Positions 38,065-62,228 of a DNA stretch of 64,000 nt are shown here, in pieces (the first letter of the stretch is position 1; each line of letters starts with the position of its first letter). Made by a program: the position numbers and the translations under genes. Source of the stretch: Prorocentrum cordatum (lineage: Eukaryota > Sar > Dinophyceae > Prorocentrales > Prorocentraceae); NCBI GenBank assembly GCA_963575745.1, contig CAUYUJ010014267.1:173426-237425 (forward strand). The letters are read 5' to 3'. A model generated the notes under the pieces. The model ran no database searches. It saw nothing but the letters and a program-made list of their open reading frames with translations, and was not told the DNA's origin.

Positions 38065-38093
38065 ATCCAGAAGCCGCATTAAAGTGATCATTT
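38065..38093 (+). repeat. Terminal inverted repeat, left
   Basis: Starts ATCCAGAAGCCGCATTAAAG and ends TGATCATTT. It is a perfect reverse complement of 62200-62228; the flanking TA extends the symmetry to 31 nt. Confidence 0.95.
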
Positions 38094-38104
38094 GTTTTTT
38101 GGCC

Positions 38105-38186
38105 CCCCCTCTGTCACAGAGGGGGTCAAATATGCCCCCCCTCTGTCACAGAGGGGTTCCCAGATGCCCCCCCTCTGTCACGGAGG
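38105..38186. repeat. Subterminal palindromes, left (3 copies)
   Basis: CCCCCTCTGT-C-ACAGAGGGGG at 38105-38125, with slightly shorter or mutated copies near 38138 and 38169. Spacing is 32 bp. Probable binding sites for the transposase or structural end signals. Confidence 0.9.
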
Positions 38187-38498
38187 ACCTCGTTCTGGGT
38201 GCTCTTCTGCCACGGGAGCTCCCGATACGATTGGAGACGATAAAATGCGATAGCGGGATGGGGGATTGGAGGGGGAGGGAGAAGAAAACGATGAAGGAGA
38301 GGAGGCAACGACAGCACCGATGAAAGCACCGATTTCTTTTTCCTTCTCCGCTCGGGCAGCGGTCGCCGAGCACGACGGCGCGCGCGAGTCGCCGCCGCTC
38401 ACGATGCATTGGCAAGGCCTCCGCTGCTGCGGAGGGTCGACGTTCGGCCGATGAGGCCTCCCTCCGCTGCTGCGGAGGGGCGGCTCCTGTGCGATGGT

Positions 38499-39011
38499 TC
38501 AACTAAGCTTTTCCCAGGGATTGGTTTCGGGGGGGGGTTCGACCCACCTCCAAGTCGTGGTCGCGACCTCCCAGTGCCCCTGGCCGCTACTCCACCCACT
38601 GTGGCTGCTCCACCAGTCACTGGGGCGTTGGTCGCTGCCGAATGCAACTTGCATGTCGCGCCAGGCGGAGTCGACCATGCGGTCCTGCAGCGAGGAAGCC
38701 TCGCCGCTCGGCTGTTGCCACTCGCGCTCCTCGCCCTCCTTGGTGCGCCACCACTCATCCCTGCGCCACTCCTCGTCTGTTGGTTGCTGCCGTGGCGTTT
38801 GTGGCCTCCGCTGCTGCGGGGGCTCTGGCGGCTCGTGGCCGAGGGCAGCGATCGCGTCCGAGATGTAGATGGCGGCGCCGCGCTGCCCTCGCTGCTCCAG
38901 CGGCGCAGGCCCTGGAGATGGGCACTGCGGGGTCGGCTGCCACCTGGGGGGTGATAAATAATTATTTCTATATCCCCTCCCTGTCAACTCCCGCCCCTTC
39001 CCGACACTCAT
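38499..39011 (-). CDS. Small Trp-rich hypothetical protein (weak)
   Basis: 170 codons whose ATG overlaps the stop of the nuclease-fold gene upstream (ATGA). The product is polar and rich in Trp, Gln and Glu (EEWRRDEWWRTKEGEEREW, then WWSSHSGWSSGQGHWE). One mini-hairpin inside reads in frame as PPQQRRP. It could be a separate gene, a frame-shifted end of the upstream gene, or its last exon after an acceptor at CACCCCCCAG|G. No family is recognised. The segment 38190-38498 next to it holds two more hairpins and no gene. Confidence 0.35.
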   Translation of the reverse strand: MSVGKGRELTGRGYRNNYLSPPRWQPTPQCPSPGPAPLEQRGQRGAAIYISDAIAALGHEPPEPPQQRRPQTPRQQPTDEEWRRDEWWRTKEGEEREWQQPSGEASSLQDRMVDSAWRDMQVAFGSDQRPSDWWSSHSGWSSGQGHWEVATTTWRWVEPPPETNPWEKLS

Positions 39012-41083
39012 TTCCTTATGTCATTCCCTCTCCTCCCTCCTGCCCTCCCCGTGCGCCACCGCCCCTCTCCCCCCCTCCCCCTTTCAACCCCCCGCCGCGA
39101 CCTTCCATCGCCAGCCGCGGGCATGTCGCGGCCGTCGTCCGCGCTTTCGTCTGCCCATCTTGGTGGGCGCCACGCCTGTTGGGCGCGCTCGTCTTGCTCG
39201 TCCCTCTCGCTGTGCTGCTCTGGTGCCTGGCGCTCGGGTCCGTGCTGCTCGGGCGGCAGCGGCGCCCTGAGCGCAGCTGCCAGCTGTTTCTGGGCGCGCC
39301 TGTCTTTCTTCTCTTTGGCTCTCTCCTGCTTCCTCCCCGGCGAACGCACGCTGGCCATGCGCATTTGGAACAGGAGAGGGTAGTGGGCGCCGCCGTGCCA
39401 GCGCCCCTCCACCTCCACGGTCTCTGGCGGGAACGTCTTCTGCAACGCGCGGAAGAGGGTCACCTCGCGATTACTAGAGAAGCGGTGGTCCCCTCTAGCC
39501 TCAGCCTCGGCGCGCCTCAGTTTCTCACTCTCCTTCTCTTGGATCTTGCGTTGGCATTCCTCTGACTGAGTCAGTAAATCCTGGAGGTGCTCGCGGGCGT
39601 CTTTTTTCGGGTAGTAGCAAGAGTAAGGCATCCCAGGGCCTCCGTTCTGGCTGTGGTGCCAGTACGTCGGCTGCGATGATGGGCTGGTGGCGGCCCCCGC
39701 TGCTGCGGGGGCCTCTGCCTTGCTTCTGTTACGGTACCCGATCTCACCGATCACCGACTTGCGTGCGAAGAGCAACCCCGTCTCGTCTCTGTCGTGCACG
39801 GCGCTCAGCGGCCAGCACAGGGTGTACTCGCCAGGCCTGTTGAGAACGAAGATGCCGCAGCTGTCCAAGCACGGAGTGCCGTCCAATCCGCGCCAGAAGT
39901 ACGCTGCTGCCGTCTCCAATCGCATGCCTAGACCCCGAAGACTCGGCAGCGTCTGTGTGAGCGCCATGTTGAAATCCCCACAAAGGATGTCAACGCTGTT
40001 GTCCTGCAAGATGGTCGCCAACCTCGGCCACCACGTCTTGTGAGCCTCGTTAAAGCCTCTGGAATTTTTCGCCGTGTCGCGGTGGAGGTGCACCGCGCGC
40101 GCCCGCACTTTCGAGCCGAAGTGGGCGTAGGTTTGATCGAAGTAGAGCTCAACCACCATGATCCTCGAGAACGCTTCCATCTTGCGCCCTCTTGCTGTTC
40201 TGTAGTGGCCGTCGACACTCCTTTCCCAGTGGAGCAGCCGCATTTCGTAACACAGATTTGCGCGCGCAGCGATGCACAAGGACTTGTCCTCACGCCCGCG
40301 CAGGGTCAAGTATTCGTACTCTGGTCGATTCTGGAGCTGTTGGCAATCGCCAACACTCGCAGCACGACTTCCTCTTGCTGTCGCCATCGCTGCTGCGGGG
40401 GCGACAAAAGGCCCACCGCTGCTGCTGCTTTGGCCCTCCGCTGCTGACGCCCCCGCTGCTGCGGGGGCGTCCGCCTGCAGCGGCGGTGGTCTCCCTGGCC
40501 GCTGTAGGATTGACTCCATCTGCTCCTCACATTCCGCAAAGCACGCCACGAGAGCAGGGCAATGCCGCAGCTGCAACTCAAGTCTCCGCCGCTGGTCCGC
40601 GTGGTTGGTCTCGCTCGGCATGGAGCCCCAGTTCCCGAACAGGACGGAAAGGTTGCCCACGTTGTCGTTCCGTGGCCTGTTCACGTCAGCCGCTCTTCTT
40701 TCGCAGAAGAACTTTGGCGGGACGGTGTCGCGAAGACGGCATTCGCGCCGCTCGACGTCGTTGGGCGGCCTGCAGCCCCTAAATTCCTGAGGCTCTTCGT
40801 CGTCGCTCGGATCCACCACGGAGTCGCCTGGGCGGGTGCGTATCGTAGAAACTTCTGATCGCGCCGCCGCTGCTGAGCTTGAGACGCCAGGCCGCGCAGC
40901 CCCCGCTGCTGCGGGGGTTCTCTCTGGCACAAGGGCCCAAGGACCCTTCCAGGGTTCTGCCTGACCACCTACAGGTCGCCAAACCTTCCCAGATTTCGCT
41001 GTGAACACTGCCGTCAGTCGGCCCCGAGGCCCCGCTGCTGCGGGGCCCAATGGGCTGCTGCTGCTGCTGGCGGCCGCGGCCAT
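39008..41083 (-). CDS. Endonuclease/exonuclease/phosphatase-fold protein
   Basis: 691 codons, single open frame, ATG at 41083. Residues 1-250 are low-complexity and carry most of the mini-hairpins, read as PAAAG. A globular core follows: YEMRLLHWERSVDGHYRT, SRIMVVELYFDQTYAHFGSK, RARAVHLHRDTAKNS, WWPRLATILQ and VDILCGDFNMAL, with GDFN at 39968-39979. Order and spacing match the EEP (AP-endonuclease-like) fold, and GDFN is its metal/phosphate loop. The final Ser/Asp-His motif is not evident, so activity is uncertain. The C-terminus is long, charged and coiled-coil-like, then basic (RGGEGRW). No reverse transcriptase is nearby, so it is not an ordinary LINE endonuclease. It is the leftmost large gene and lies downstream of the transposase. 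Confidence 0.7.
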   Translation of the reverse strand: MAAAASSSSSPLGPAAAGPRGRLTAVFTAKSGKVWRPVGGQAEPWKGPWALVPERTPAAAGAARPGVSSSAAAARSEVSTIRTRPGDSVVDPSDDEEPQEFRGCRPPNDVERRECRLRDTVPPKFFCERRAADVNRPRNDNVGNLSVLFGNWGSMPSETNHADQRRRLELQLRHCPALVACFAECEEQMESILQRPGRPPPLQADAPAAAGASAAEGQSSSSGGPFVAPAAAMATARGSRAASVGDCQQLQNRPEYEYLTLRGREDKSLCIAARANLCYEMRLLHWERSVDGHYRTARGRKMEAFSRIMVVELYFDQTYAHFGSKVRARAVHLHRDTAKNSRGFNEAHKTWWPRLATILQDNSVDILCGDFNMALTQTLPSLRGLGMRLETAAAYFWRGLDGTPCLDSCGIFVLNRPGEYTLCWPLSAVHDRDETGLLFARKSVIGEIGYRNRSKAEAPAAAGAATSPSSQPTYWHHSQNGGPGMPYSCYYPKKDAREHLQDLLTQSEECQRKIQEKESEKLRRAEAEARGDHRFSSNREVTLFRALQKTFPPETVEVEGRWHGGAHYPLLFQMRMASVRSPGRKQERAKEKKDRRAQKQLAAALRAPLPPEQHGPERQAPEQHSERDEQDERAQQAWRPPRWADESADDGRDMPAAGDGRSRRGVERGRGGEGRWRTGRAGGRRGNDIRK
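39692..39713 (-). repeat. Example of the GCAGCAGC mini-hairpin family
   Basis: Nine-base perfect arms (GGCCCCCGC and its complement) around TGCT. Other perfect members have different arms, for example GCGCCGC at 46222-46239. The longest has 21-bp arms at 45483-45528. About sixty members lie at 38.4-61.6 kb. On the coding strand they read GCAGCAGC and give PAAAG, PRSSG or PQQRG by phase. Confidence 0.9.
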
Positions 41084-41209
41084 CGCCCCCTGCCCCCGCG
41101 TTGCAGGGGGGGCGGCCGTCAGAGCCGAACTCCTGGGGCCGAAACGGCGGTGGAAGGAGGGGGACGGGGCGAAGAGGAGGAAGACGGGGCGGATAGGGAA
41201 GGAAAGGGC

Positions 41210-41475
<266 letters not shown>

Positions 41476-41761
41476 ATAGAGAGAGGAATGATATAATGAC
41501 CAGGAGAGATCAGGGAGAAGGAGGGGGGAGAGCAGGAGGAGGGGCGGAGTGATCGACACCCGCGTGGTTTTCTCCCCCTGCCTGCTCTCCCCCTCCTCTC
41601 ACCTCCTCCCCCGTCCCCCCTCCTCCCTGTTTCTTCTGCGCAAGGCCTGCGCTACGTCCGCGCGCGCACGCGGCACCTCAGTCGCAGGCAGGTGGAAGAG
41701 CAGCGGCTGCTGCCCGAACTCACACCCCGCGCCTCGCCGCTGCTGCGGCGGGCCGCGCCTC

Positions 41762-41980
41762 TCAGAGGCCCCCAGCTGCAGGGAGCGCAAGCGCCAGGGA
41801 GCCAGACAGACGGCGTCGCGTCTCACTGTGCACAAACATGCTGAAAGCTCTCGGGTTGCCCCCCAAGTACTCGTCTATGACGTTCTGCAACCATGTGGCA
41901 AACGTCTCCGGCCACTTTCCACCGAAGTCCTCCATGCCAGCGGCGTCCCATTCCCGCCGAAACCAGTCAAAATCTGACCG
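41762..41980 (-). other. Likely C-terminal exon of the transposase
   Basis: In another frame, after an AG at 41981, the peptide RSDFDWFRREWDAAG leads to FATWLQNVIDEY and AFSMFVHSET before a stop at 41762. It is globular, unlike the tail SPCDFGFWAFCSSAVRF read in the exon 2 frame. The donor is not settled; GAT at 42110 gives a phase-0 join. Confidence 0.5.
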
Positions 41981-44900
41981 CTGAGCTGCAGAAAGCCCAG
42001 AACCCAAAATCGCAAGGCGATTCAGCGCGTCGCACCTCGACGTTCGACCCGCCACGCCTCCGCAGCTGCGAAGGCCCGCGCCCAGCTCGGATAACCCGAC
42101 ATGCTTCATCCTGTGTTTGATATCTATGGCTGCCTCTGCGTCTAAGAGTTTGGCTTGCTGTGTCCTCAGCAGCTTGCGCGCTTTCTTTACGTCGTCCCCC
42201 CAGGCGGGTTAGCTCTTCTCTGCGCCGCGCCTCGACATCCCGCTGTCGTTTCTCGTTTCTGAGCGTCGCCTCGCGGGCGTCCTCGTATGCTGCGAGGGCT
42301 CGCTGAACCCCAGGATCTTCCTTCGACACTTCACGCACTCGCCTCCGTTCTTTCCGTAATTGCGTCTCCATGAACGTGGCCCCCGCGATGTCGCCCCAGC
42401 TGCGCAACTCCTCAGCGATCGACGAATACGTTCTCATCAATTCAGACGTCTGCTCCGCAGTTTCCATACGAGACGTCGACAGGCCAGGCGGTGCCTCCAG
42501 CGCGCTCTCCCCCGCCGCTGCTGCGGTGAGACTTTGATTGGCCCATTCGTAGTCAAACTCGCCAGCGGCGCTCCACCCGTCGTCGTCCTCGCTCCCATCA
42601 TCTTCATCTCCTTCGAGGGCGTCGACGGAATTGCCACCCTCAGTGCCCCCGCTGCTGCGGAGACCCTCGGCTGCGTCTTCCGCCCCCTCCATGCCATGCC
42701 AAATCTTGTCGCCCTCGTCCAGAGCCGTGTCGTCTCCAAGGTTTGCGAACACGTCGTCGCAGTGGCCGCGTCGAGGGTGCGGGAGGACCAATCGCATGAT
42801 GTCTTTGTAAGTCCATCTCAAGCGCCCCGCCTGTACCTCTTCTTCGACCTCCGCTACTGCGGCGGCGACCTTCTTACGCATCCCCAACTTTCTCCAGAAA
42901 TGGCCTGCCTCCTTGCATATGCGCGCGTCCAAGTCCGCATCCCACAGATTTGCCTTGAAACCAGTTTCCCAGTACCCGTCTGCCGCAGCCAAGTGAAGAC
43001 TCATTTGGGACATCACTTCCACCATCAAGTCAATGCATTCTAACTTGTCCAGCTGTGGGACGCACTGGCCCAGCCTCATGGCTCTCAGCAGCGCGGCTCC
43101 TTCTCTCTTCATGTACTCGCGCTTGGCGTGTTGATTCAGATGTGTGTCCACAGTTTGGAGGATTGGGGTTACGCCGCCCCCGTGCGGGATGAACACGTAC
43201 CCTCGAGACCAACATAGCTTACTCACAAGCGGGGACAAGTGAGGGCCATGATCATCCGCCATCATAATTCTCCACTCCCGCTGCTGCGGAGGCTCTGGCA
43301 GATGAGGGAGGTGGCGGTCCAGGTACGCGAGCACGCACGGTGTCCGGTAAGACCCCTTGGTGCTGGTGGTCGCCGACACCCATCTGCCGAACCCTCGGCG
43401 CCGAAGGTGTTCGAGCAGGCGCGGCCTCAACTTCTCTCCTCCCCCCTCCGCCTTGAACATGCACTCCATCGGTGGGGGGCCTTCTCTCCGCAGTCGATCC
43501 TTGTCGCTCATTGTCATGAAATTGGCCGTCCACCGCTCCCGCACCGCGCCGTGGCACTCCACCAGTGGCACTTCGACCCCCGCTACTGCGAGGGTCCTCA
43601 CGCCAGCTGATCCTGTTTCATTGTGGTGGAAAGGCGACTGGTCGAAGTTCTCCATCTCGGGATCCTGCTCGTTGAGTAGCACGCACGCGGCGCGCACCCT
43701 AAACACGTTCAGCCAGCCTCGCTCGAGGCGCTCTTCCAAGACGGGCAGCGGGCACTTGTACTTCCTGTTCGGGTACCGCATGCTGAGGCCGTATTCCTTG
43801 CGCCAGGAGGCCCACCAGCGCGACCTCAACTCCACGGCGGCGGGTCGCTGCCCGATCCGCAGCTGCTGCGTGACGTACTCGCTCATGAGCTCCAACGCTT
43901 TGGTCTGGAGCATGCTTTGCGTGAACCTTGCTATCTTCGCTGGCTCTCTTTGGGTACTTCGCAGTCCACTTTTGATCATCTTCCAATCCACACTGTGCCG
44001 AATGGAACTCCACCATTCAAACAGAGCTTGCCGCAACCAAGGGCATTTTCGAGCTGGGCCCTGTCCCTGTTGTGGTATCCTTTTCCGCCCTTTCCACTTC
44101 AGGAGGCGCCCCTGCCCGTGCTGCTTCTCGTGTCCCCGCGGCTGCCGAACAGCCTCCGCTACTGCGGAGGCGTATTTCGACGACAGAAAAGCCTTGTGCC
44201 AGCGCCGCACAACGTGCGTGCGCTTCCTGAGAGGGAGACGGGACATGGAACCCCAGTCCCACGCATCCATGAATGAACGCGCCCCTCCATACGGAAAGCG
44301 GTCTCCAGGCGTCCAGCCTAAAGAGCGCATGTGCTCGTCGAAAGCACCCGCTATCTCCATCCTCGAGCACAGGAGCGACGGGACCACCACGCGCTTCTTG
44401 TTCTGGGCGGGGGCTTTGCGCTCGCAGCCGCGGTTCCTGTACCTCAAGAGCTGCTCCTCCCGCTCTGCGGGCATCAACTCCCGAGCTACGTCCAGGGCGC
44501 ACGCAGCGTCTGTCAGTCCTGTCCACCATTGGATGGCTTGCACGAGCTCCTGACAGACAGCCTCGGCGTCGACTTCCACCACGGCCAAGTCCTCAGGTGG
44601 CGCCGCCGCTGCTGCGGCGGCAACGCCCTGTGCTCTCGGAGGGGCGGCGTGGCCAGGCTGCGGGACAAGTTCTTCGTCGTCTAAGGCGCTCTGCAGGCGA
44701 CGAAGCTCCTGGACGTCATCCTGCGTGACTTCTTGTGTCAGGACCATCGCGTCGAGGAACCACGCCAGCCGCGCCCTTTGCACGATGTAGTCCGCGATGT
44801 CCTGGCGGGCGGGCATGGAGGAGGGGCAAGGAGACTCGGTGGGGAGGGCACGAGGGGAGAGAAGGGCGGGATGGGAGAGGCATGAAGGCAGAATGGGGAG

Positions 44901-46436
44901 ACAAGGAGGGGAAGAGCATGTGGGGGCAGCAGAGATGGAAGCGAAGGATCAGGGTGGTCGGAGAGAGCAACTGTCCTGGCGGAGCTCCCTGCGAGACTCT
45001 CGCGTGGAAACCTCCTGGGTCATCTGCAACATGCAATCCAAACCGCAGTCCCCGTCTGCGACTGTGGACACGACGAACACACCGAGAGCCGAATAGAAAC
45101 CGTCCACCGTCGAAGCATCTCCCGTGAAATCCACAAAGTCGGTGGAGACGCCTGCGATAAAATGATTGCATCGAAACAAAGGATACTCCTCCGACACGGG
45201 GGCCCAGTCCGGTGGCCCCGAGTCTCGGGGGACGGCGCAACACGCGATCGCGTCCACCGCAGGCTCGCGGGTTAACTCCTCTAGTTTCCACGGCGGCAAG
45301 ACAGCTTTGCAAAGGTCGACTCTGTTGCGTCCTTCCCACACGTAGACGCGCACCTTCCGCAACAGCGCAAAGATTACGAAAGCAGAATATCCTATCCACT
45401 CTCGGCCTCCCCCCGGCCTTCCGCGAATACTGCGCGACAGCTTCATCAATTTCTCGAAGCACCTCTGGCCTTGTTCTGAAAGTGCCCCTGCAGGCGCCCC
45501 CGCTGCTGCGGGGGCGCCTGCAGGGGCAACCGCAGCGCCTGCTGTCGCGGCTGTCTGTTCACAGGCGGTAACTGCCGCAACTTCCGCCCCTGGAAGCACG
45601 GGTTCCGCTACGTCGCGAACAGCAAGCGGGGCGGGTTGGGGGAAAGCGACAGGGGCAACCTCCTTTGCTGAGAGAGCTGCTGTTGCCGCGGAGTCCTTCA
45701 AGGCAGACTCCACTGCGGAAGCGGCCTCGGCGATTGCGTCGGCGCCATGCGCGCCAGCAGGACCTACGGACGCCTCCGCTGTGGCGGGCTCTGCAGAAGG
45801 GCACGCGCACGGCGCCGCCGCCACTTCAGGAGGAGGCGCGCACGCTTCCGCTGACGCACCCGCTGCTGCGGGGCCGTCAGAAGAGCCCACATACGGCTCC
45901 GCTGCCACTTCAGCAGGGGCCACGCACGCCTCCGCTGACGGCCCCGCTGCTGCGGGGCCTTCAGCAGGGCCCACCGACGGCTCCGCTGCCGCTTCAGCAG
46001 GGGCCTCGCACGCCTCGGCCGGCGCCTCCGCTGCTGCGGGGGCTCCCGCTCCTGCGGGCCACCCGCCCGCGCATTGCACTAAATGCCAGGGCGCTTGCAA
46101 GTCTGACCACTTATTGTAGTCCACGGAACCGTCCGCCAGACGATGGTCGCTGGGACACGGCCACTGCGAGCAGAAATGAATCTTCTTACACATGCGTCTG
46201 CCAGAGTCATAATGGCAAGCCGCGCCGCTGCTGCGGCGCATAACGTACCCGAATCCGAATATTGTCCCCTTTAGTTTCCGTGGGTTCATGAGCACGAAAA
46301 AGGGGTCTTTCTTTTTGTCTTCTTGGTACCAAAACTCCACAAATTCGTTGGCCTCGCGGTCGTGCCCGACTCGCAGAGGCGCGTTTGCAGGGCGAGCGTC
46401 TCCTGGGTCTGGAGGCGGAGCGGCTGCGGCTGCCAT
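41762..46436 (-). CDS. DDE transposase with N-terminal OTU-like domain (spliced)
   Basis: Exon 1 is 46436-44976 (ATG at 46436 preferred; the frame is open to 46619) and exon 2 is 44801-41967, about 1,431 residues. Exon 1 has a short folded N-terminus (EFVEFWYQEDKKKDPFFVLMNPRK), a long Ala/Pro/Glu-rich linker with mini-hairpins, then WIGYSAFVIFALLRKVRVYV, a CNHF motif and ADGDCGLDCML. Exon 2 continues DIADYIVQRARLAWFLDAM. A basic helical region follows, then the catalytic core: NFDQSPFHHNETGS (Asp codon 43641-43643), MADDHGPH (43251-43256) and ILQTVDTHLNQ (43146-43148). The Asp triad has about 129 and 35 residues between members, as in DDE_1/pogo-type enzymes. The acidic C-terminus probably continues into another exon ending at 41762. 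It would cut and insert this element at TA. Confidence 0.8.
44802..44975 (-). other. 174-nt GA-AG intron of the transposase gene
   Basis: CGCCAGGACA is present at both edges: exon 1 ends CTCCGCCAG|GACAGT and exon 2 follows CCCGCCAG|GACATC. Removal joins RRELRQ to DIADYI in frame and removes the stop at 44949-44951. The intron is pyrimidine-rich. Confidence 0.75.
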
Positions 46437-46654
46437 GATGCCGAAGCCATGCGCGCGCACACGCGGCCGCCCTCTGGTCTCGAGCCCAGCGCTGCAGGGC
46501 AAGCAAACGGCCGCATCCCCCCACAAGGAGGATGTACAAGGGGGCGGGAGGAACGAGGAACAAGGGAGATATGCGGGGACCAGCGGACACACGCCTGAAA
46601 AAAACACGACCGTCGGCATGCTTCGCGAGGGTTGCTGCTGTGAGATGGGCTGGT

Positions 46655-47862: not shown

Positions 47863-48009
47863 GCCGCCGCGCGCAAGCCCTCGCTGCTGCGAAGGCGCCC
47901 GCGTTCTAGGTGTCAACTCCCCTCACTGGTGATCCGCCTGAAAACGGCTATGGAAAGCGGACTCCTCGTCTCGAACAAATCCTCCTACTTCTCATCGGAC
48001 TCCAAAACC

Positions 48010-49725: not shown

Positions 49726-49974
49726 GCCGCCGTGCGCAAGCCCCCGCTGCTGCGAAGGCGCGCGCGCCCTAATTAGGTGTCGCCCCCCCCTCAAAAGTGA
49801 ACCGCCTGAAAACGGCTATGGAAGGCGGACTCCTCGTCTCGAACAGATCCTCCTACTCCTCATCCGCATCATGCTCCCTCCACGAGATTCTTTCCATCTC
49901 ATCCAACCCATCCCCCTCCTTCTCTCCGAACGAGCACAGCTGCCTTCCCTGTCCCTTGACCGCCCCTCTGCCCC

Positions 49975-50280
49975 TTGAGGGGGGGCCTTGTGTGCTCTGA
50001 CCGACCCTCTGTCCCACAGGGGGGGGGGGCGCCCTGATCGAACGACCACCCCTGTTTCACAGAGGAGGGCGCGCGGAAACGCACGACCCCACCCCCTCTG
50101 TGACAGAGGGGGCCCCGCGCTTTTCCACCCGACCCCCTCTGTGACAGAGGGGGGTCCCGCGGAAAAGCGCGGGACCCCCTCTGTCACAGGGGGGGTCCCG
50201 CGGACAAGCGCGGGACCCCCTCTGTCACAGAGGGGGTCGGCCTTGTGTGCTTCGACCGCCCCCCTGTCCCACAGAGCGTC
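49975..50280. repeat. Internal array of the same palindrome
   Basis: At least six CCCCTCTGT(G/C)ACAGAGGGG units, about 35-40 bp apart, some degenerate. The central base is G on the left side and C on the right, so the array is inverted about 50165. A second hairpin, GTCCCGCG with CGCGGGAC, lies at the centre. It separates two blocks of genes. Confidence 0.85.
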
Positions 50281-50792: not shown

Positions 50793-53282
50793 TCACGCGA
50801 AGTGGGCCCCCTGGCCAGGGATTGTCATCTTGCCGCTCTTGGGGGTTTTCCGTCCCTCCTCGGCGTCCTTCTTCCGTTTCTTCTCCTGCTCTTTCTGCTC
50901 CTTTTGCCATGCCTGCTTCTCCTTGTGGGTGTCGGTGGCCCTCTTCTCCTTTGTGATCTGCAGCATCAGCCGATCTCCGCGCACCAGCGGCACCGTGTTG
51001 TGCATGCACGGGACAAGCACGCTGCAGACGCGGAGGGGGGCGGCTGGCGGGCACTTTGTCATTGTCTGGAACTCTTGTGGTCGAAGTGCAACGTTGAACT
51101 TCCAGTGCTCCTGTCCCTGCACTAGCTGGGCTCGGGCAAGTTCTTCTGGTGTCATCCTCTCAACTCCCCAAAAGAAGTGCAAGGACTCGGTACCTCCGAA
51201 CTTAAACTGGTACGGATTCTCTTCCTGTTCGGCCTCGCCCTGTGCAGGCGCCGCTGCTGCGGGGGCCGCCTCGTCGAGCTGCGGACCCACGGGCGCCTCG
51301 CCCTGCGCAGCCCCCGCTGCTGCGGAGGCCGCTTCCTGCGGCGCGGGCTTGAGCTCCAGCTCTGGTAATTTGAAATCAGGTTGTGCCCAATATGTTTCCA
51401 TTTTCTCGACAGGAGTCGGACGTTTCTCACCGACTAGCACCTCCACTGCCCGCGGATTGCTCGAGACTTTCGGGAAAATCTTCGCGGTGGGGCAGCAAGG
51501 GAAGAGCATCAGTTTCCCCTCGGCGATGTCCCCAGTAGCCACCACATGGACACTCTTGGCTTGAACGTCATATTGCATCTGGACGGGTTGGGCGCAAGTG
51601 TCCGCGTGACGATGGAAGCCAGTCATGACTTCCGCGATGCTTGCTTGGTGCCACCTGTCTGTGTCGAGATTGCCAGACGGAGCCGAAGCGTGCCACGATT
51701 TCACTGGGACCACCATCAGGCTGTTCACGGGCTTGGACACTTCAGACATCTGCCTGTTCAGAGGCTTGTCTTCTTCGTTGAACTCTATCAATACTGGCTG
51801 CGGGCGAGAGCCCTCGCCACCTCCGCTGCTGCGAGGGCCGGGTTTCTCGGGGGCCGCGGGCAACTTGTCGGTCCACGGCGCAGGAGGGGGCGGGAACTCT
51901 TTCTGTGCGTTCTTTTCCATTTTCTGCCAGGCCTCGCGTACTTCAGCATAGTGCGGACGCACTGTCTCGCACACGGCCTCCACAACTGCCTCCCGACGAG
52001 GTTTGGTAGCCTTCACCCTTACGTGCACCTGGTAGAAGGTGTCCGTCGCAGTCAGAACCGCCCCCGCGGTCAAAGTCGCGCTCTTCTCCTCCCCGTGGGC
52101 CTCCGCTGCTGCGGGGGCCAATATGCGACGGACATACCCCAACAAAGAATTGAGCTCCTGTATCCGACTGTTGCCCTCGCTGTGTCCCCAAGCCGTTTCC
52201 GGCGCGGGGCATTGTCCGCACCTCGGCTCTTGCGAGTACGCCCTCATGACAAGGGCTACCTTCACATGGGGACAATCTATGGGGAGTTGGTTGAGAACGC
52301 TCCAGGTGGCTGGTGCCAGGGAACGTATTTTGTGATCCACCCAACGTCGATCATAATCTAGAATTTGCGGTATGAGCTGCCCTGATGCGGCCCCCACGTT
52401 GATGACGAAAGTAAACATGTCCTCGAACCATTTGGCCTTGGCGTACTCGGGATGTCGTTGCGCGCAAGCCTTGAGAACAGTTTCGTACGAGATATTCACG
52501 GGGTGTCCTGTCTCAGATCCGCACGATGCTTTCTTGCCCGCCGCTGCTGCGGTGGCGACGAAATCAGCGACGGACGTCAGGACCTCGATTTCGTGAGAGG
52601 TCACACCTTTTCCCTGTGGGTCGTTCAGGGCCGCGGAAATGATCGCGGGGCCTTGCGCGAAGACGGCATCGAAGTGAATTTCCCACGAGAGCACCTCGCA
52701 AAGCAAACCGTTATCGAGCACGTCCATGAGTTCTGTGAACTTCGGTGCGCGACGCATTTTTGGGATATCCCAGGAACCACCTGTACCTGTCTGGAACTCC
52801 TCCAAACCACATCCTTTGTGGTCTTCGGGAATGACCCACACTGCGCCGTGCTTGAGGTTCAGCAGACCAAGGGTTAGGGTGCAGTGGCTCAGCGCCCCGT
52901 AGTTGAACGTTGACAAGCTTGTGTACGCCGAGCGTAGAGCCTCCACGGACTTCGTTTTCTGCAAGTTGTGGTCCGCGTGCGCCGTGTACGGCCTGCCATG
53001 GAGGCGCTCGTAATCGGCCTTCTTCCCCGCAGGGAGTTCCTGAACAACCACTGCTTCGTGCTGCGCCTCGTTCAAGAGGAACCTGTCTTTCAGAATGCCA
53101 CACAGGAGATTAACCACTCTGGCAGCGGAGGGGTACGTCCCACCTCTGTTCTGCGGGTGGACGCAGATATCCTCCAAGGAAATTTTGGCCTTCAGCCGCT
53201 GGCCCTCGGAGTCCTTCAAGGCATAGCGGCTGCGCAACGTGGCGGCATCATTCAGGGGGCCTGACTTGATGTCCTCGGACAT
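50793..53282 (-). CDS. Unknown cargo protein B (829 aa)
   Basis: An intact frame from the ATG at 53282 (MSEDIKSGPLNDAATLRSRY). The N-terminal 75 residues include HPQNRGGTYPSAARVVNLLC. Residues to about 370 look globular (STFNYGALSHCTLTLGLLNL, WVIPEDHKGCG, VLSWEIHFDAVFAQGPAI). QEPRCGQCPAPETAWGH contains a CxxC pair. The middle has hairpin-encoded linkers (PAAAEA, PRSSGG, SAAAGA). The C-terminal part includes GTESLHFFWGVERMTPEELA and ends in a Lys/Glu-rich coiled coil and a basic tail. No family is recognised. A broken fragment of the PHVKVAL region recurs at 58680-58760. A (GA)n tract lies 180 nt upstream. Confidence 0.7.
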   Translation of the reverse strand: MSEDIKSGPLNDAATLRSRYALKDSEGQRLKAKISLEDICVHPQNRGGTYPSAARVVNLLCGILKDRFLLNEAQHEAVVVQELPAGKKADYERLHGRPYTAHADHNLQKTKSVEALRSAYTSLSTFNYGALSHCTLTLGLLNLKHGAVWVIPEDHKGCGLEEFQTGTGGSWDIPKMRRAPKFTELMDVLDNGLLCEVLSWEIHFDAVFAQGPAIISAALNDPQGKGVTSHEIEVLTSVADFVATAAAAGKKASCGSETGHPVNISYETVLKACAQRHPEYAKAKWFEDMFTFVINVGAASGQLIPQILDYDRRWVDHKIRSLAPATWSVLNQLPIDCPHVKVALVMRAYSQEPRCGQCPAPETAWGHSEGNSRIQELNSLLGYVRRILAPAAAEAHGEEKSATLTAGAVLTATDTFYQVHVRVKATKPRREAVVEAVCETVRPHYAEVREAWQKMEKNAQKEFPPPPAPWTDKLPAAPEKPGPRSSGGGEGSRPQPVLIEFNEEDKPLNRQMSEVSKPVNSLMVVPVKSWHASAPSGNLDTDRWHQASIAEVMTGFHRHADTCAQPVQMQYDVQAKSVHVVATGDIAEGKLMLFPCCPTAKIFPKVSSNPRAVEVLVGEKRPTPVEKMETYWAQPDFKLPELELKPAPQEAASAAAGAAQGEAPVGPQLDEAAPAAAAPAQGEAEQEENPYQFKFGGTESLHFFWGVERMTPEELARAQLVQGQEHWKFNVALRPQEFQTMTKCPPAAPLRVCSVLVPCMHNTVPLVRGDRLMLQITKEKRATDTHKEKQAWQKEQKEQEKKRKKDAEEGRKTPKSGKMTIPGQGAHFA

Positions 53283-53459: not shown

Positions 53460-53580
<121 letters not shown>

Positions 53581-55917: not shown

Positions 55918-57708
55918 TCAAGCTCCTCCTGGGCTCCGTGCGCCCCCGCTGCTGCGGAGGCTGCTGCTGCAGATTCTGTCTCCGCCTCCTCCTGGTCTCC
56001 GTGCGCCTCCGCTGCTGCTGAGGCTGTTGCTTCGGGTTCTGTCTCCGCCCACTCTCCCCGCTGTTTTTTCCCACTTGGCTTCCCGCTTCCGATCCTTCTT
56101 CCTGGCCGCGGCGCCTTTGCCAGACTTCCTGTTCTTGGCTTCTACAAAAACGAACAATGTGTGGCAATGTTCCGTGAGGCGGTTCGCATCCTGGGCCTTG
56201 TGGATCACCCTGTGCAAGTGCGGCCAGTCATATGTATCCTGCTCCTTGCGCTCCGCGTCCGTGAGCCTGACCCAGGTCGGACGCGCCACCCAATCCAACT
56301 GGCGGTACTGCAGGCTGGTGAGGAGCCTCCGCTGCTGCGGAGGCTGGGAATCCTGATTCAACCAGTGCGGCAGATCAGGCTGCCCGCCCGCAGGGCACTC
56401 GCGAACCTGAGCGGGGCCAAGAATCACGATGTAGTGCGGGTGCGTCACGTGACAACCTTTTGTCGGACACCACAAAGCCAAGCCGAGTACGCCTGTACCA
56501 GACGCGCCGCAACTTCTGAGCAGCTCCGAAAGATCCTCCCTGCCTGCGTCAAAGATCCCAGCGAGAATACGCACTCGGTTCCACAACACCAGGTTCCGCA
56601 GCCCGTTGCGGAAGTTTTCGGGCCACGGGTGTCCCGCGAGGCTCGTCTGGTGTCGGAAGAACACGCCCCCCACTGCTATGGAGAGTTTGCCTTCCTTTGC
56701 TTTCGGATTGTGAGCCACCGCTGCCAGGGTCACCGACCAGGCCTGAACCAGGAACTTCCCGTGGCAGTGCCAGCGAAGCACCTCGCACTGCTCGACGCGC
56801 TCGGGAACCCAGAGGAGAGCCCCAACGCACTCGCGCGCGACCTCCCCGTGGAAGCCACTTTGGCGGATGAGATCGTCGAGATGTTGCTTCCGCCGATCGC
56901 GATTGATGCGTGCACCAGGCTCGAAGGAGACTAAGACGACCCCTTCGCGCCTGTCCCTGACAGCTGCGACCCAATCCGACAGGGAGGCGCCCGCGCGCAG
57001 GACGAGGGAAGCAAAAGCCAGATTCACGCGCGCCTCTGTCTGCCCCTCCTGCACCTGGTCTTCGTCGTCGTACAGCAGGGGCACAAGAGGCTTGGAATGG
57101 CTCGGGCCGCGCTCTTCCGATGGGAAGTGCGGGCGGCCTTCCTCTGGGAAGCCCTCTTGGACAGGAAGCGCTGGCGACCGAGCCTTCGAGGTCAAGGCGA
57201 GAGTCTTGATCACGCGGGCCCCCGCTGCTGCGGAGGAGCTTTCACGCAGTTTGCGTGCTGCGATCAGAGCCTGCCGATGTTGCCAATTAGTCGTGCAGGG
57301 AGATCTCGGTCTCGGGTCATCGGAGCCACCCTGTCCAGGCTCGATTACCACTGCGGCGGCGCCTGGCTCCACGGATGCCCCCGCTGCTGCGCAAGCCGCC
57401 TCCTCAGCCGTTATGACTACAAGGCGGTTGGCGGCGGCCGTTAACTTCCGCGCATCTTCGATCAGGCCATTCTGCATCAATTCCTGGGCAACCAGCAGGG
57501 TCTGCGAAACGCTTTCCTGGGCATCAGACATCGACGAAAACAATGACCGCAGTTTCGTTGCAACCTCCCCCCCCGCTGCTGCGGAGGCCGGTGCTGGATC
57601 TGCCATTCCATGCGGAACTGCATCAGGGGCCTCCTCTGGCAGCCCCCGCTGCTGCGGAGACTTCGGCAGAGGTTCCTGCGCGGCTCCAGTCGCGCCAGGC
57701 TGCTCCAT
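55918..57708 (-). CDS. Unknown cargo protein C (596 aa), EEP-like core suspected
   Basis: The ATG at 57708 (MEQPGATGAAQEPLPKSP) was preferred; codons upstream are open to a GTG at 57780. The N-terminal 200 residues are linker-like with hairpins (PQQRGL, SAAAGG, CAAAGA). The core (about 230-450) includes VNLAFASLVLRAGASLSDWV, VLVSFEPGARINRDRRKQHL, VLRWHCHGKFLVQAWSVTLA and LVLWNRVRILAGIFDAG. This resembles the strand order of an EEP fold, but GDFN is replaced by AGIFDA, so catalysis is unlikely. After it come GLALWCPTKGCHVTHPHYIV and WPHLHRVIHKAQD. The C-terminus is basic, then two 20-residue Ser/Gly repeats. The start region is duplicated at 59531-60526. Confidence 0.6.
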   Translation of the reverse strand: MEQPGATGAAQEPLPKSPQQRGLPEEAPDAVPHGMADPAPASAAAGGEVATKLRSLFSSMSDAQESVSQTLLVAQELMQNGLIEDARKLTAAANRLVVITAEEAACAAAGASVEPGAAAVVIEPGQGGSDDPRPRSPCTTNWQHRQALIAARKLRESSSAAAGARVIKTLALTSKARSPALPVQEGFPEEGRPHFPSEERGPSHSKPLVPLLYDDEDQVQEGQTEARVNLAFASLVLRAGASLSDWVAAVRDRREGVVLVSFEPGARINRDRRKQHLDDLIRQSGFHGEVARECVGALLWVPERVEQCEVLRWHCHGKFLVQAWSVTLAAVAHNPKAKEGKLSIAVGGVFFRHQTSLAGHPWPENFRNGLRNLVLWNRVRILAGIFDAGREDLSELLRSCGASGTGVLGLALWCPTKGCHVTHPHYIVILGPAQVRECPAGGQPDLPHWLNQDSQPPQQRRLLTSLQYRQLDWVARPTWVRLTDAERKEQDTYDWPHLHRVIHKAQDANRLTEHCHTLFVFVEAKNRKSGKGAAARKKDRKREAKWEKTAGRVGGDRTRSNSLSSSGGARRPGGGGDRICSSSLRSSGGARSPGGA

Positions 57709-58670
57709 GCCCCGGGCCGCTCCCGTCGCGGAGGCGGGCGGGCGCGGCGGGGGGCAGACCTGCAACGGCTGCGGATTCACTTTATCGCAATGCCATCCCT
57801 CCCTGCGCTCAAATGACTTTTCCCCTTGCGCCGCTCTGCTGCTCCCACTTCTGAACTACCTCATCCCTTCTACCTCTGCCTGCTCCCTCCTCTTCCTGTT
57901 CAGTCCTCCCTCCTCCCTCCACCGCGCTCATTTCTCCTTGCTCCCTTCTCTGCTCCTCCTACGTGGGGCGTTTCACGACAACGACGACGACGACGCCGAC
58001 GAGAACGATGACCACGACGGCGACAACGAGGGCAACGACGACCACGACGACGACGACGAGGACGATGACCACGACGGCTACCAGCGACGACGACTAGCGA
58101 CGACGACGATCGACGACGACGACGCCGACCACGACGACGACGGCGAGGACGACAACGAGCGACGACGACGACGACAACCGACGCCGACGAGGAACGACGA
58201 CGACGAACGAGGACGACGATTACGACGACGAGATGACGAAGGATCGAAGATCGAACCTCGAAGTGCGAAGCTTCGAAATTCAAACTTCGATCTTCGAACT
58301 CCGAACTTCCAGCTTCTAACTGCGAACGTCGCTGGGGTGCCAGGGATGGACTGGGATGGAGGGAAAATGGGAAGGAAAAGCGAGGAAGCGGGAGAGGAAG
58401 TTGGAGGAGAACGAACAGGCGTGGAGCGACGAGGAACGGGCGGCGAGGAGCCGACGTTGAGGGCGGCGGGATGGGGGGACAGGGAGGAGAGGGGAGACTT
58501 CAAAACGAAAATCGCGCCACGGCGCCTGCACGCGCGCCCCCGATCTCGGCGGCCGACGCGCGCGCCCCTGCAGAAATGCAACGCGCCCTTAATTCGAGCC
58601 CCGCTGCTGCGGAGCCACCTACTCCACAACCAAATCGTCTGGGGAGCTGTTCGGACCCCAAACTACTAAT
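57630..58670. repeat. About 1-kb direct duplication, copy 1
   Basis: Repeats at 59531-60526 with an offset of 1.86-1.90 kb. It covers the start of protein C and the upstream segment with a (GAC)n array (57970-58230). Copy 2 lacks a short piece that contains the ATG at 57708. Confidence 0.9.
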
Positions 58671-58674
58671 TAGT

Positions 58675-59050
58675 TCTTCAGCCACTCGGCTCTTGCGAGT
58701 CCGCCCTCATGACAAAGGGCAACCTTCACATGGGGACACTCAATGGGGTGTTGATTGAGAACGCCCCATGTGGCTGGTGGCAGGAACGGACGAGGGGGGG
58801 CGGATAGAGGAGCAGGACGAGCACTGGCAGGGGATATGCACCAGGAGAGAGATCTCATGGAGGAAGAGGAGGGGAGGGGACGAGAGCCACTCATAATTAA
58901 GCGCACGCAGGCCCACGCACGTGCTCCATTTCTCAGCGACCGCCGCGCCGCCATGAGAACTGTCGTACCACCGCCGCTAATGCGGCGGATGCGTGACCTC
59001 TCCCATCCCTGTCCTGCGCTGTTTCTGCTACCGCCCTCCCCCCTTCCAGC
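58675..59050 (-). pseudogene. Patchwork of protein B fragment and intergenic repeat
   Basis: 58680-58760 matches 52220-52310 inside protein B (VLNQHPIECPHVKVAL, then out of frame). Directly next to it 58800-59050 matches 50440-50650, which lies 1.6 kb away in the parent. Two non-adjacent pieces have been joined. Confidence 0.75.
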
Positions 59051-59206
59051 CAAGCTCGGGTTTCATGCTCGGAGACGGGCGCGGCTGGCGGCTCTTAGTG
59101 CGGGTGCGCGTGCTGCCTCCAACTCCTCATCCCCCTCCTCCTCCTCTCCTCATCCCCCCTCCTCTTCCTCCTCGTCCTCCTCTATCGGCCCAGCTCCGAT
59201 CGCCGC

Positions 59207-59506
59207 TCAGCTCTCCTGGTGCGGCTGGCGGCAAAAGTGCCGAATATTGCCTGGGATGTCCTTCACCTTCTTCTTCGACATCTCAAGCATCATCTTGCCC
59301 ATCTCCTCGGTGCGGCGCGCCTCCTCCATCATCTGCCGCGCCTGGTCGACGAGCATCTGGCCCTTCACTCCAACGGCGCGTGCATGGCGGCAACGATTGC
59401 GCCACTGGAGAAACCGCACCACCATGGTCGCCCAGTGCCAAACACTGCCCTCCGTCGTGATGAGCTCGAAGTCATCGACGTCGTACTTGCCCGCGATGCT
59501 CGCCAT
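59207..59506 (-). CDS. Short hypothetical protein or fragment (99 aa)
   Basis: ATG at 59506 (MASIAGKYDVDDFELITTEG). It has WHWATMVVRFLQWRNRCRHA, then a Met/Glu/Lys-rich helix (MMEEARRTEEMGKMMLEMSK). Natural composition and no repeats, unlike the rest of this patch. It may be a small gene or a captured piece of a cargo gene not otherwise in the window. No family is recognised. Confidence 0.4.
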   Translation of the reverse strand: MASIAGKYDVDDFELITTEGSVWHWATMVVRFLQWRNRCRHARAVGVKGQMLVDQARQMMEEARRTEEMGKMMLEMSKKKVKDIPGNIRHFCRQPHQES

Positions 59507-59530
59507 AGCGGCGCAAAAACCGCGAAGGAG

Positions 59531-60526
59531 CCTCCTCTGGCAGTCCCCGCTGCTGCGGAGACTTCGGCAGAGGCTCCTGCGCGGCTCCAGTCGCGGAGGC
59601 GGGCGGGCGCGGCGGGAGGCAGACCTGCAACGGCTGCGGCTTCACTTTATCGCATTTCCATCCCTCCCTGCACTCACATGGCTTTTCCCATTGCGCCAGT
59701 CTGCTGCTCCCACTTCTGAACTACCTCATCCCTTCTACCTCCATCTGCACCCTCCTCTTCCTGTTCAATCCTCCCTCCTCCCTCCACCGTGCTCATTTCT
59801 CCTTACTCCCTTCTCTGCTCCTCCTACGTGGGGCGTTTCACGACAACGACGACGACGATGACCACGACGGCGACAACGAGGGCGACGACGACCACGACGA
59901 CGACGACGAGGACGATGACCACGACGGCGACCAGCGACGACGACTAGCGACGACAACGACCGACGACGACGACGCCGACCACGACGACGACGGCGACGAC
60001 GACAACGAGCGACGACGACAACGACAATCGACGCCGACGAGGAACGACGACGACGAACGAGGACGACGATTACGACGACGAGATGACGAAGGTTCGAAGA
60101 TCGAACCTCGAAGTGCGAAGCTTCGAAATTCAAACTGCAACCTTCGAACTCCGAACTTCAAACTTCGAACTGCGAACTTCGCTGGGGTGCCAGGGATGCA
60201 ATGGGATGGAGGGAAAAATGGGAAGGAGAGAACGAGGAAGCGGGAGAGGAAATTGGAGGAGAACGAACAGGCGTGGAGCGACGAGGAACGGGCGGCGAGG
60301 AGCCGACGTTGAGGGCGGCGGGATGGGGGGACAGGGAGGAGAGGGAAGACTTCTTTACGAAGATCGCGCCACGGCGCCTGCACGAGCGCCCCCGATCTCG
60401 GCGGCCGACGCGCGCGCCCCTGCAGAAATGCAACGCGCCCTTCATTCGAGCCCCGCTGCTGCTGCGGAGCCATCTACTCCGAAACCAAATCGTCTGGGGA
60501 GTTATTCGGTCCCAAAACTACTGTTT
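59531..60526. repeat. About 1-kb direct duplication, copy 2
   Basis: Second copy of 57630-58670, with the (GAC)n array at 59838-60080. Its left-hand edge supplies the stop codon of the next gene. Confidence 0.9.
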
Positions 60527-61663
60527 GCCACCCGCTGCTGCGGACGCCGAGGGCCTGGTGCTGGACGCCGCGGCCCCGCTGCTGCGGGGCCCCTGAGAGG
60601 GCGTCGGCCTCCCCTTCTCTCTGGCGGCGTCGAACTTGACCTTACGCTCCACACCGAGGTCCTTGTACCAGCGAAAAGTTCCTGACCCGTCGCTCCCGCC
60701 CAAACCCGCGGCTGGTGGCCTCACCGTGTCCGCGTGGGGGACGAGGGGCAGAGCTTCGACCTTCCTGTCGCCCCAGTGCGGGTGTAAACGGACGCCTGTC
60801 CCGTCGTCGCGGTGCAACACGAAATCCCACATCGGCAGCTTCACTTTCACCCGCTGCCCCGCGAACTGTCGCGCGCGCACAATACTCTGACGCATGTGGT
60901 CGTAGCTGTTTGGCCGGACTTCGAGGGAACAGCCGATCAGAGCCCCGCTGCTGCGGGGCCCCTCCACGACCTCCCTGATATCTTCCTCCCTGAGCGTCGC
61001 CACCATCTCTTGCCACCGCCAAGGGACTTCCTCGTCGCTTTTGAAACCAAAGCTCGTCCTCGCACCGTGGTCGCAAACAGCGACCATGGTGGGCTTCGCA
61101 TTGTCAAACCACTTGGCTTCTGACTCGAACGGGGCAGTTGGGTCTTCATTCAGATGGCGCCACCATTTCAACGCTTGATTGTGTTGCTTAAACGAAGTGC
61201 CGAGCCTCTCTTCATAACTCAAAAAATAATTAACATCAAACTTCTCAAAATCCTGGGGCCCGCGCGCCGCCGCCGCTGCGGTGGCGCGGGGCTCCTGCGC
61301 CGCAGGCGCGGCTCGGGATCCCGACCCCTCTCCTGAAACTGTGTTCCCAAGTTCTGGTACGTTTCGGAGGGCAGCCCTCACGAAATTATCGAATTCGGGC
61401 TTGCCGAGACCAGGGGCGCGGGGGCTCACAACGCTAAGCGCGGCGAAGCGAGACGGCCGTTGAGACGAGACCGCCGCCGCTGCTGCGGCGGCAGGGCCAT
61501 CGCGCCATTTGGCGTCCTCCGTTGGCGTGTGCCCGTCTTGTCGCCAGTCTCTCCAACCCCTCGCTGACCAATCATGGCCGTCCTCCCAGCCACGCCAGCC
61601 GCTGCTGCGGCTATCCCACCATCCTCCCGCGCCATCCCATGTGTATCCGCCTGCATCGCCCAT
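60518..61663 (-). CDS. Unknown cargo protein D (381 aa)
   Basis: ATG at 61663 (MGDAGGYTWDGAGGWWDSR). The frame is open to 62209, but that part reads through the subterminal palindromes and a T-rich leader. The N-terminus is Gly/Trp/Arg-rich (GWRGWEDGHDWSARGWRDW), like an RNA- or DNA-binding tail. Folded segments follow: LGKPEFDNFVRAALRNVPEL, FDVNYFLSYEERLGTSFKQH, QALKWWRHLNEDPTAPFESE, CSLEVRPNSYDHMRQSIVRA and KVKLPMWDFVLHRDDGTGV. Hairpins read as PRSSGA, AAAAA and SAAAGG. The stop at 60518 lies in the duplicated block, so the C-terminus may be truncated. First gene inside the right end. No family is recognised. Confidence 0.6.
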   Translation of the reverse strand: MGDAGGYTWDGAGGWWDSRSSGWRGWEDGHDWSARGWRDWRQDGHTPTEDAKWRDGPAAAAAAAVSSQRPSRFAALSVVSPRAPGLGKPEFDNFVRAALRNVPELGNTVSGEGSGSRAAPAAQEPRATAAAAARGPQDFEKFDVNYFLSYEERLGTSFKQHNQALKWWRHLNEDPTAPFESEAKWFDNAKPTMVAVCDHGARTSFGFKSDEEVPWRWQEMVATLREEDIREVVEGPRSSGALIGCSLEVRPNSYDHMRQSIVRARQFAGQRVKVKLPMWDFVLHRDDGTGVRLHPHWGDRKVEALPLVPHADTVRPPAAGLGGSDGSGTFRWYKDLGVERKVKFDAAREKGRPTPSQGPRSSGAAASSTRPSASAAAGGKQ

Positions 61664-62110
61664 TGCAAGACGATGGCGCAGGCGCGCGTTAGGCCGCGAC
61701 GGGCCCAGCTGCACCGGTGCTCGCGGGCGATCCCACGGGCGCGGGGTGGTTTGAGCATAGCGGCGGCGGACGACGCGACGTGATTGGACGGCGGAGAACT
61801 TGAAAGGAAGGGGGGTTGGAAACGAATGAACGAAGTGGACGAAGAGCGGAAATCGAACCAGAGGGAGGCGAAAAAAGAGCGGAAAAGAATAAGGACATGC
61901 AGACGAAGGAGAGTGACGAGGTAGATGGCGGGCCAGAACGGCAACGGAGGATAATGTGGTGGAAATTGTGAAAAGGACGCATGGAACAACACGACGAGGA
62001 TCACAGACGCAAAGATGATGAGCGCAGTGGTAGCATGACATATCCGAAATCAAGAAGCAGGATGAGGAGGAACGGGATGACGAGCAACTCTGTCGCAGAG
62101 AGCCCCCGAA
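61664..62110. other. Right-end leader region, no gene
   Basis: On the minus strand it is pyrimidine-rich, with CTTCCTTTCAAG at about 61797-61808 as a possible trans-splice acceptor for protein D. Likely promoter and leader of the gene row. Confidence 0.35.
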
Positions 62111-62114
62111 CGCA

Positions 62115-62198
62115 CCCCCTCTGTCACAGAGGGCCTCCGAACGCACCCCCTCTGTCACAGAGGGGGTCCGAAAAACACCCCCTCTGTCACAGAGGGGG
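62115..62198. repeat. Subterminal palindromes, right (3 copies)
   Basis: Same palindrome at 62146-62166 and 62178-62198 (perfect 10-bp arms) and near 62115 (8-bp arms). Spacing is 31-32 bp. Confidence 0.9.
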
Positions 62199-62199
62199 G

Positions 62200-62228
62200 A
62201 AATGATCACTTTAATGCGGCTTCTGGAT
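62200..62228 (-). repeat. Terminal inverted repeat, right
   Basis: Perfect inverse of 38065-38093. The last subterminal palindrome ends one base before it, versus 11 nt of spacer on the left. Confidence 0.95.

Follow-up and report, generated by a model that had tools for sequence, protein, structure and literature searches.

Within a 64,000-nucleotide stretch of the genome of the dinoflagellate Prorocentrum cordatum (contig CAUYUJ010014267.1, positions 173,426 to 237,425; hereafter the window), an inverted repeat encloses a unit of 24,164 bp (38065 to 62228) that encodes a transposase and several further proteins and is studded with short hairpins. The two 29-nt arms of the repeat (38065..38093, plus strand; 62200..62228, minus strand), recognised in the sequence and in genome copies, are identical throughout. 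The element ends read ATCCAG...CTGGAT, and a TA lies immediately outside each (38063..38064 and 62229..62230), which the sequence and the copies indicate to be the target-site duplication. The left flank consists of a GGGCTATT repeat that continues for a few bases beyond the right-hand TA. Such a repeat on both sides is expected if the unit inserted at a TA and split it. Palindromes of the CCCCCTCTGTCACAGAGGGGG type occur in subterminal position at either end, two on the left (38103..38156) and three on the right (62115..62199), and three more lie in the middle of the element (50092..50236). An earlier sequence-only reading of the window had described the perfect repeat, the enclosed length and the palindromes at both ends, and all of these hold.

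The transposase and associated genes

The transposase gene lies on the minus strand in two exons. The first (44976..46619) encodes an N-terminal region that we take to be OTU-like from its DGDC motif, and that is fused to transposase also in the homologues P0002 and P0004 and in a partial relative, L064. The sequence and the reading of P0002 and P0004 indicate a probable 174-nt intron (44802..44975, minus; CGCCAG|GACAG...CGCCAG|GACATC). The second exon (41967..44801, minus) encodes the DD34D domain, recognised by alignment and predicted fold, and a coiled C-terminal part. Homologue reading and copy comparison suggest that this part continues in another frame (41765..42208, minus). At the G run near 42196 the window copy has one base more than all six other full copies, and near 46598, in an A run of the first exon, it carries a base that none of the six has.

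The putative catalytic triad is D392, D522 and D557 (numbered in the 949-aa open reading frame, ORF), with 34 residues between the last two. Triad and spacing, chosen by hand from an alignment of 50 of the 61 transposase homologues with the window sequence, are conserved in these 51 sequences. The RNase-H fold in the predicted structure is nearest to Mos1/SETMAR. By its DD34D spacing and Mos1-like predicted fold, the transposase looks like a member of the mariner class rather than of pogo/CENP-B. The sequence-only reading was thus correct in giving the unit its own DDE transposase, and its pogo/CENP-B assignment is not borne out. No Pfam match to a CENP-B-type DNA-binding domain was found, no fold search of the N-terminal part alone having been made. 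A Pfam transposase profile matched neither the window ORF nor the 7 of 61 homologues scanned, and a PDB sequence search with the transposase gave no relevant match.

Two further genes recur in homologue searches, and both lie on the minus strand. The first (39008..41083) is presumably EEP-like from its CGDFN (GDFN-type) motif; the window copy lacks 28 nt that all six other copies have. The second (50793..53282) encodes an 829-aa protein with a SET-like predicted fold at residues 524-783. Of 5,631 first-look candidates for this gene in the host assembly, the best-scoring 55 were taken as copies, and 50 of these 55 have no internal stop.

The size of the unit, its several uncharacterised proteins and the presence of EEP-like and OTU-like proteins would also suit a virus-like or Polinton/Maverick-like integrated element. 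The TA target duplication and the DD34D transposase make this very improbable. In addition, a Pfam scan of 10 ORFs, none of which exceeded any family's cut-off, contained no polymerase (PolB included), retroviral-type integrase, capsid or packaging family. Profiles of the transposase and of the 829-aa protein found no relatives in IMG/VR, and the exact end sequence is absent from that database.

Two partial loci help to place the gene set. Searched with the transposase, the species genomes gave one relative, L064 (NHDG01000044.1), a 7.7-kb contig encoding a transposase of 34% identity. It is filed under a planctomycete metagenome-assembled genome but appears eukaryotic and is probably misbinned. 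Its second ORF resembles the N-terminus of the EEP-like protein weakly (blastp E 0.004; hidden Markov model score 15.6 bits with filters off, no match with filters on; a single target). The other locus, L065, is an 8-kb segment of the host assembly found through its hairpins. On its hairpin strand, and in the gene order of the window, it encodes an OTU-transposase relative (34-36% identity) and then an EEP-like relative (match to P0074, 22.6%, E 1.5e-8). This shared order suggests that the OTU-transposase and EEP-like genes are the element's own rather than host genes. The row of co-oriented genes noticed in the sequence-only reading is supported, but "cargo" is probably the wrong word for it.

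Copies in the host assembly and movement of the unit

The host assembly (G000; 4.13 Gb, 21,875 contigs) contains 488 matches to the 28-nt end core at up to 3 mismatches (240 forward, 248 reverse). The reversed control yields 0 + 0, which places the inverted repeat far beyond chance. Among the 100 end matches listed, 32 ends form 16 convergent pairs spaced 23.8-24.5 kb apart; the remaining convergent pairs lie 213 bp to 54 kb apart, and many ends are partnerless. Six full copies were read. They measure 23,998-24,171 bp, are all collinear with the window unit, and are 96.6-99.4% identical to it (96.4-99.4% across all pairs). Of 20 copies checked (the window, the six full copies, the longer copy C225, 213-bp and 7.9-kb derivatives, and 10 further pairs), 19 have TA on either side. 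The exception, C3081, reads TA|GA, and the GA at its right end may reflect mutation or an imprecise event. The sequence-only reading had proposed a search of the host assembly with the end sequence. What such a search returns is neither a lone copy nor a pair of separate short elements, but many ends and full-length copies that keep them together with the collinear 24-kb content. These copies also rule out two short elements that share ends by chance.

The 24-kb copies might instead be segmental duplications of one locus. Consistent with this, the left flank of C217 and the right flank of C5670 are identical over 300/300 nt in inverted orientation. This is the only long between-copy match among the 40 flanks of the 20 copies (15,365 nt), and a 213-bp derivative carries the same ends and TA, so that segmental duplication is extremely improbable. 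Two short matches occur between flanks of other copies, and flanks are similar within the copies at C9058, C3538, C4958 and C8868.

Elements that recombined with each other may explain the common flank of C217 and C5670, as may insertion of both copies at one position within a repeat. At C9058 (L024, L026) the flanks have 162 nt in common at 94%, inverted, at distances from the ends that are not mirrored. The 213-bp derivative (L027, on C3538) is a miniature consisting of the two ends alone, with TA on either side. C225 is the same element at 28.1 kb. Extra genes were considered for it and rejected, as the added length consists of Ns and a repeated 1.9-kb piece. Substitutions among the seven copies, scored per base from majority to minority, favour T>C (0.069) and A>G (0.064) over C>T (0.016) and G>A (0.020). 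This excess from A/T to G/C extends over the whole element and fits a mutation or conversion bias that drives GC.

Taken together, the collinear full copies, the TA duplication, the co-oriented genes and the element's own transposase bear out the proposal of one giant transposon bounded by terminal inverted repeats. It is very probably a multi-gene, mariner-class DNA transposon belonging to a wider class with common genes and gene-sense hairpins. The established way in which mariner elements move is through a DD34D transposase that acts on terminal inverted repeats at TA. Here, the enzyme would act on the 29-nt repeats, duplicate TA and move the 24,164-bp unit. Movement would be by cut and paste, as the ends, the TA, the dispersed copies and the transposase fold suggest. 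Members of the wider class would have in common an OTU-transposase gene with an EEP-like gene after it, together with short gene-sense hairpins along the whole element. Folds and motifs allow the guess that the SET-like and OTU-like accessory proteins modify the host response and that the EEP-like protein modifies nucleic acid.

Several results weigh against this explanation. No OTU Pfam profile matches the window ORFs or the scanned homologues. The EEP-like protein, recognised by motif and listed as EEP-fold in the sequence-only reading, has no Pfam EEP match and no relevant PDB sequence match, and the window protein itself does not match L065 at E 0.001. The transposase frame of L065 is broken by stops. 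Among copies, the ratio of nonsynonymous to synonymous polymorphism (pN/pS) is 0.59-1.94 in 16 minus-strand frames, many with frame-breaking indels. For the 829-aa gene it is 0.89-1.10 over 18 sequences, with C114 counted twice (as L054 and as a full copy). Purifying selection on the ORFs is thus not seen in pN/pS; with ORFs near-neutral between copies, the majority of copies may be dead passengers. The 9 plus-strand frames examined have pN/pS of 0.52-1.26, so that copy comparison does not tell the strands apart. The earlier view that minus is the only coding strand therefore stands in part: all three genes searched for homologues (transposase, 829-aa, EEP-like) are on it, but long plus-strand ORFs exist too, such as 56867-58669.

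Dispersed hairpins in gene sense

Between 38422 and 61609, a hairpin core that reads CGCAGCAGCG in gene sense (CGCTGCTGCG on the plus strand) occurs 53 times on the minus strand, with 0 on the opposite strand and 0 in the other 39.8 kb of the window (0.25 expected). Its form in gene sense is CCGC-AGCA-GCGG, and 45 of the 53 cores have the full CCGCAGCAGCGG. Listed ORFs contain 36 of the cores, in all three frames (24 AAA, 7 RSS, 5 QQ), and the other 17 lie outside. The full copies carry 51-55 cores each, one-way in 6/6, and the 40 flanks of the 20 copies checked carry none. The sequence-only reading had not noted these hairpins. This constant sense orientation, ORF-external sites included, argues for a role at the RNA level.

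In the window, 240 of 265 outer-arm cells are paired between an arm and its own partner, as compared to 194.5 (standard deviation 4.7) after arm shuffling. Slippage of GCT repeats, considered as the origin of the hairpins, is inconsistent with these matching arms. G-U pairs number 38 on the coding strand and 10 on the other (p 0.001 allowing for mutation bias), and 52 against 16 over three loci, an excess that points toward RNA as well. In one data set, cores are conserved among copies, with 4 of 443 core columns variable as compared to 481 of 13607 G/C columns (p 0.001).

Related hairpins can be followed into homologues through the peptides they would encode; these counts are taken over related sequences and are not independent. 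The 52 more distant homologues of the transposase (P0010-P0061) contain AVA[DEGA] 325 times where 18 would be expected, PQSR and PQLR 11 times each, and RSRG, RSGG and RSCG 57, 29 and 24 times. These footprints correspond to the three reading frames of CCGC-AGTN-GCGG. The nine nearest transposase homologues show the AGCA footprints AAAG (11 vs 1.5), PQQR (5 vs 0.03) and RSSG (4 vs 0.2), and AVA besides (20 vs 3.0). Among homologues of the 829-aa protein, P0062-P0068 show AAAG (8 vs 0.5) and RSSG (5 vs 0.07), and P0069-P0072 show AVA (23 vs 1.2). Four EEP-like homologues show AAAG as their sole footprint type (9 vs 0.2).

The motif TCCGCAGTCGCGGA, predicted from these protein footprints and then searched in the host assembly, has 66 matches against 45 for the control, with six same-strand pairs within 10 kb. 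L065, the one locus fetched from these pairs, contains CGCAGTNGCG (CGC-AGTN-GCG) 22 times, all on a single strand. In L064, all 22 occurrences of CGCAATNACG (CGC-AATN-ACG) are in gene sense, with none in antisense. The forms compared are therefore CCGC-AGCA-GCGG, CCGC-AGTN-GCGG and CCGC-AATN-ACGG, aligned by hand from one complete element and the partial loci L064 and L065. Since prediction of the motif from proteins led to its recovery in DNA, it can also serve to locate and classify elements of this kind in raw genomes.

One tentative interpretation of these sequence patterns is that the hairpins form an RNA address tag on element transcripts, bound by the element's own protein. Binding might serve protection, export, translation control or self-recognition. 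A giant mariner-like class would then, equally tentatively, tag its whole transcript with a family-specific RNA hairpin every ~300-450 nt, in sense, through coding sequence. As part of this proposal, the loop (AGCA, AGTN or AATN-A according to family) would be rewritten in concert across genes as families diverge. This would constitute an RNA-protein self-recognition code, the first in a eukaryotic DNA transposon.

A number of observations count against an RNA tag. The proposal, already rated below even, was rated slightly lower still because the degenerate consensus runs two ways in L065 and because matches across the genome exceed the control modestly. In L065, CGCARYNRCG divides 23 to 14 by strand and CCGCARYNRCGG 19 to 8, in part because the reverse complement of an AGTT loop fits too; the strict one-way form there is AGTN alone. 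Across the genome, the 12-mer CCGCTGCTGCGG matches 15,283 times and its reversed control 12,336 times, so that the 12-mer is also present at background level outside the family. Among 100 matches listed, 43 lie on one strand of the C114 copy, 19 in a run on the other strand of C146, and 38 are scattered. By folding energy, the coding strand is favoured significantly in L065 alone and non-significantly in the window, and in L064 it is the other strand that is favoured. Outer-arm matching has no clear excess over shuffling in L065 (59 vs 53.0, standard deviation 3.5) or L064 (77 vs 74.2, standard deviation 3.3). In a 17-copy subset, which excluded L052 (the window's own locus) and C114 (a duplicate of L054), core conservation is not significant (5/134 vs 388/4959, p 0.098). 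G/C and CpG columns alone vary there at 4.9% and 3.9%.

Alternatively, the hairpins may be selfish palindromes that multiply inside the transposon, of no use to it and perhaps spread by the EEP-like protein, in the manner of Rickettsia palindromic elements and bacterial REP sequences. This is the less probable of the two proposals, and we consider it rather unlikely. In its favour, individual hairpins differ between copies: that at 45501, with a perfect 21-bp stem, accounts for a 21-nt difference between copies and is absent in C7891 and C9058, and one near 39256 is present in C7891 alone. The mild Ala-Ala-Ala frame in 24 of 36 in-ORF hairpins would also suit a palindrome that does little harm. 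In opposition, 47 of 57 sites are common to all seven copies, and gene sense is kept in 53/53, 22/22 and 22/22 hairpins, outside ORFs as well. Moreover, the main footprint shifts with relatedness in both transposase and 829-aa homologues, with the near transposase homologues having both. That the hairpins are by-products of selection acting on the protein, which would favour Ala/Gly-rich linkers encoded by GC-rich codons, is extremely improbable: AAA is read in most in-ORF hairpins and the four EEP-like homologues have AAAG only, but one core takes three frames, 17 of 53 lie outside listed ORFs, and distant homologues show three frames of one nucleotide motif (AVA, PQSR/PQLR, RS[RGC]G).

Relation to known elements, and further features

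Mariner elements are typically short and single-gene, and the Tec and TBE elements of ciliates are much smaller than 24 kb. The element here is a 24-kb unit with several genes, an OTU-like region, a long coiled C-terminus and element-wide hairpins. It shares with Tc1/mariner (IS630-Tc1-mariner) elements the terminal inverted repeats, the duplication TA|TA in 19 of 20 copies, the DD34D spacing and a predicted RNase-H fold of mariner type. Within Tc1/mariner, DD34D denotes mariner in the portion of PMC7325037 consulted. Tec and TBE resemble the element as multi-ORF alveolate relatives of Tc1/mariner, with three ORFs (PMC7325037, PMC4724952, both in part). They differ in that their accessory genes encode a site-specific recombinase and a zinc-finger/kinase protein, and hairpins do not feature in the descriptions compared.

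Other giant eukaryotic mobile elements with many genes use different enzymes. Starships carry a tyrosine recombinase, Mavericks/Polintons a retroviral-type integrase and PolB, and Teratorn is a piggyBac element. The Pfam scan of 10 ORFs, with no ORF above any family's cut-off, included no tyrosine-recombinase captain. The 5-6 bp duplication of Polintons/Mavericks differs from the TA found in 19/20 copies. CACTA/EnSpm elements have a CACTA transposase and ends and a 3-bp target duplication, unlike the ATCCAG...CTGGAT ends and TA found here. Short dispersed palindromes, some within genes, are familiar from Rickettsia, bacterial REP sequences and Volvox organelles; the hairpins here differ in belonging to one transposon class, running one-way with its genes and having a family-specific loop.

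In the text of PMC6431247 consulted, En/Spm (CACTA) families of Chondrus crispus are likewise enlarged, bounded by terminal inverted repeats and multi-ORF (16-20 kb, 4-5 ORFs), and transposition efficiency is said to drop above a cargo of ~6 kb. If movement is as proposed, the 24-kb unit is well above that size, and a mariner-class enzyme naturally spreads it with its several genes. Fungal DNA transposons encoding TET/JBP dioxygenases (PMC12730594, in part) also carry an epigenetic modifier, as the SET-like predicted fold may be here, but belong to other transposase lineages. A search of the titles and abstract starts of open-access literature, with subscription papers and preprints outside its scope, found no giant dinoflagellate transposon bounded by terminal inverted repeats and no one-way dispersed hairpins. 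In the part of the dinoflagellate paper PMC11071213 consulted, "giant transposon" refers to Polintons. As weak evidence of novelty, a 24-kb mariner-class unit with such a gene set and one-way hairpins thus has no match in the literature searched. Its one-way, family-specific hairpins would be a system for tagging RNA or else parasites of what is itself a parasite.

The element holds several further minus-strand frames. A 645-aa frame (55918..57780) has 64% identity over 111 aa with part of P0076; it contains a stop in 6/6 other copies, the window having a base of its own near 56064. Its candidacy as a second EEP protein was rejected, as the profile match was due to P0076, in which an EEP part is joined to a 645-like part, and disappears without that sequence. 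Single window-only bases in homopolymer runs (42196, 46598, 56064 and others) are possible assembly errors. The ORF list also includes a 341-aa ORF (48769..49794; open frame 348), with a partial diverged duplicate at 47371-47916, and a 563-aa ORF (60518..62209). An internal segmental duplication spans 57711..60462, its copies ~1.85 kb apart. Two long (AG)n tracts (41182-41500 and 53436-53600) differ in length among copies.

Polycistronic transcription with spliced-leader processing had been suggested from the single gene orientation and short gaps, and the processing is not confirmed. The dinoflagellate leader has one match in the window, outside the element (6772-6792, plus strand; 3 mismatches; 0 in 100 shuffles), which may mark a retroposed gene. 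Elsewhere in the window, two adjacent plus-strand ORFs (10736-13798 and 14359-16230) may represent a helicase-encoding mobile element. The first has at its end the beginning of an AAA_30-type helicase, a match (E 3.4e-5) that falls short of the curated cut-off.

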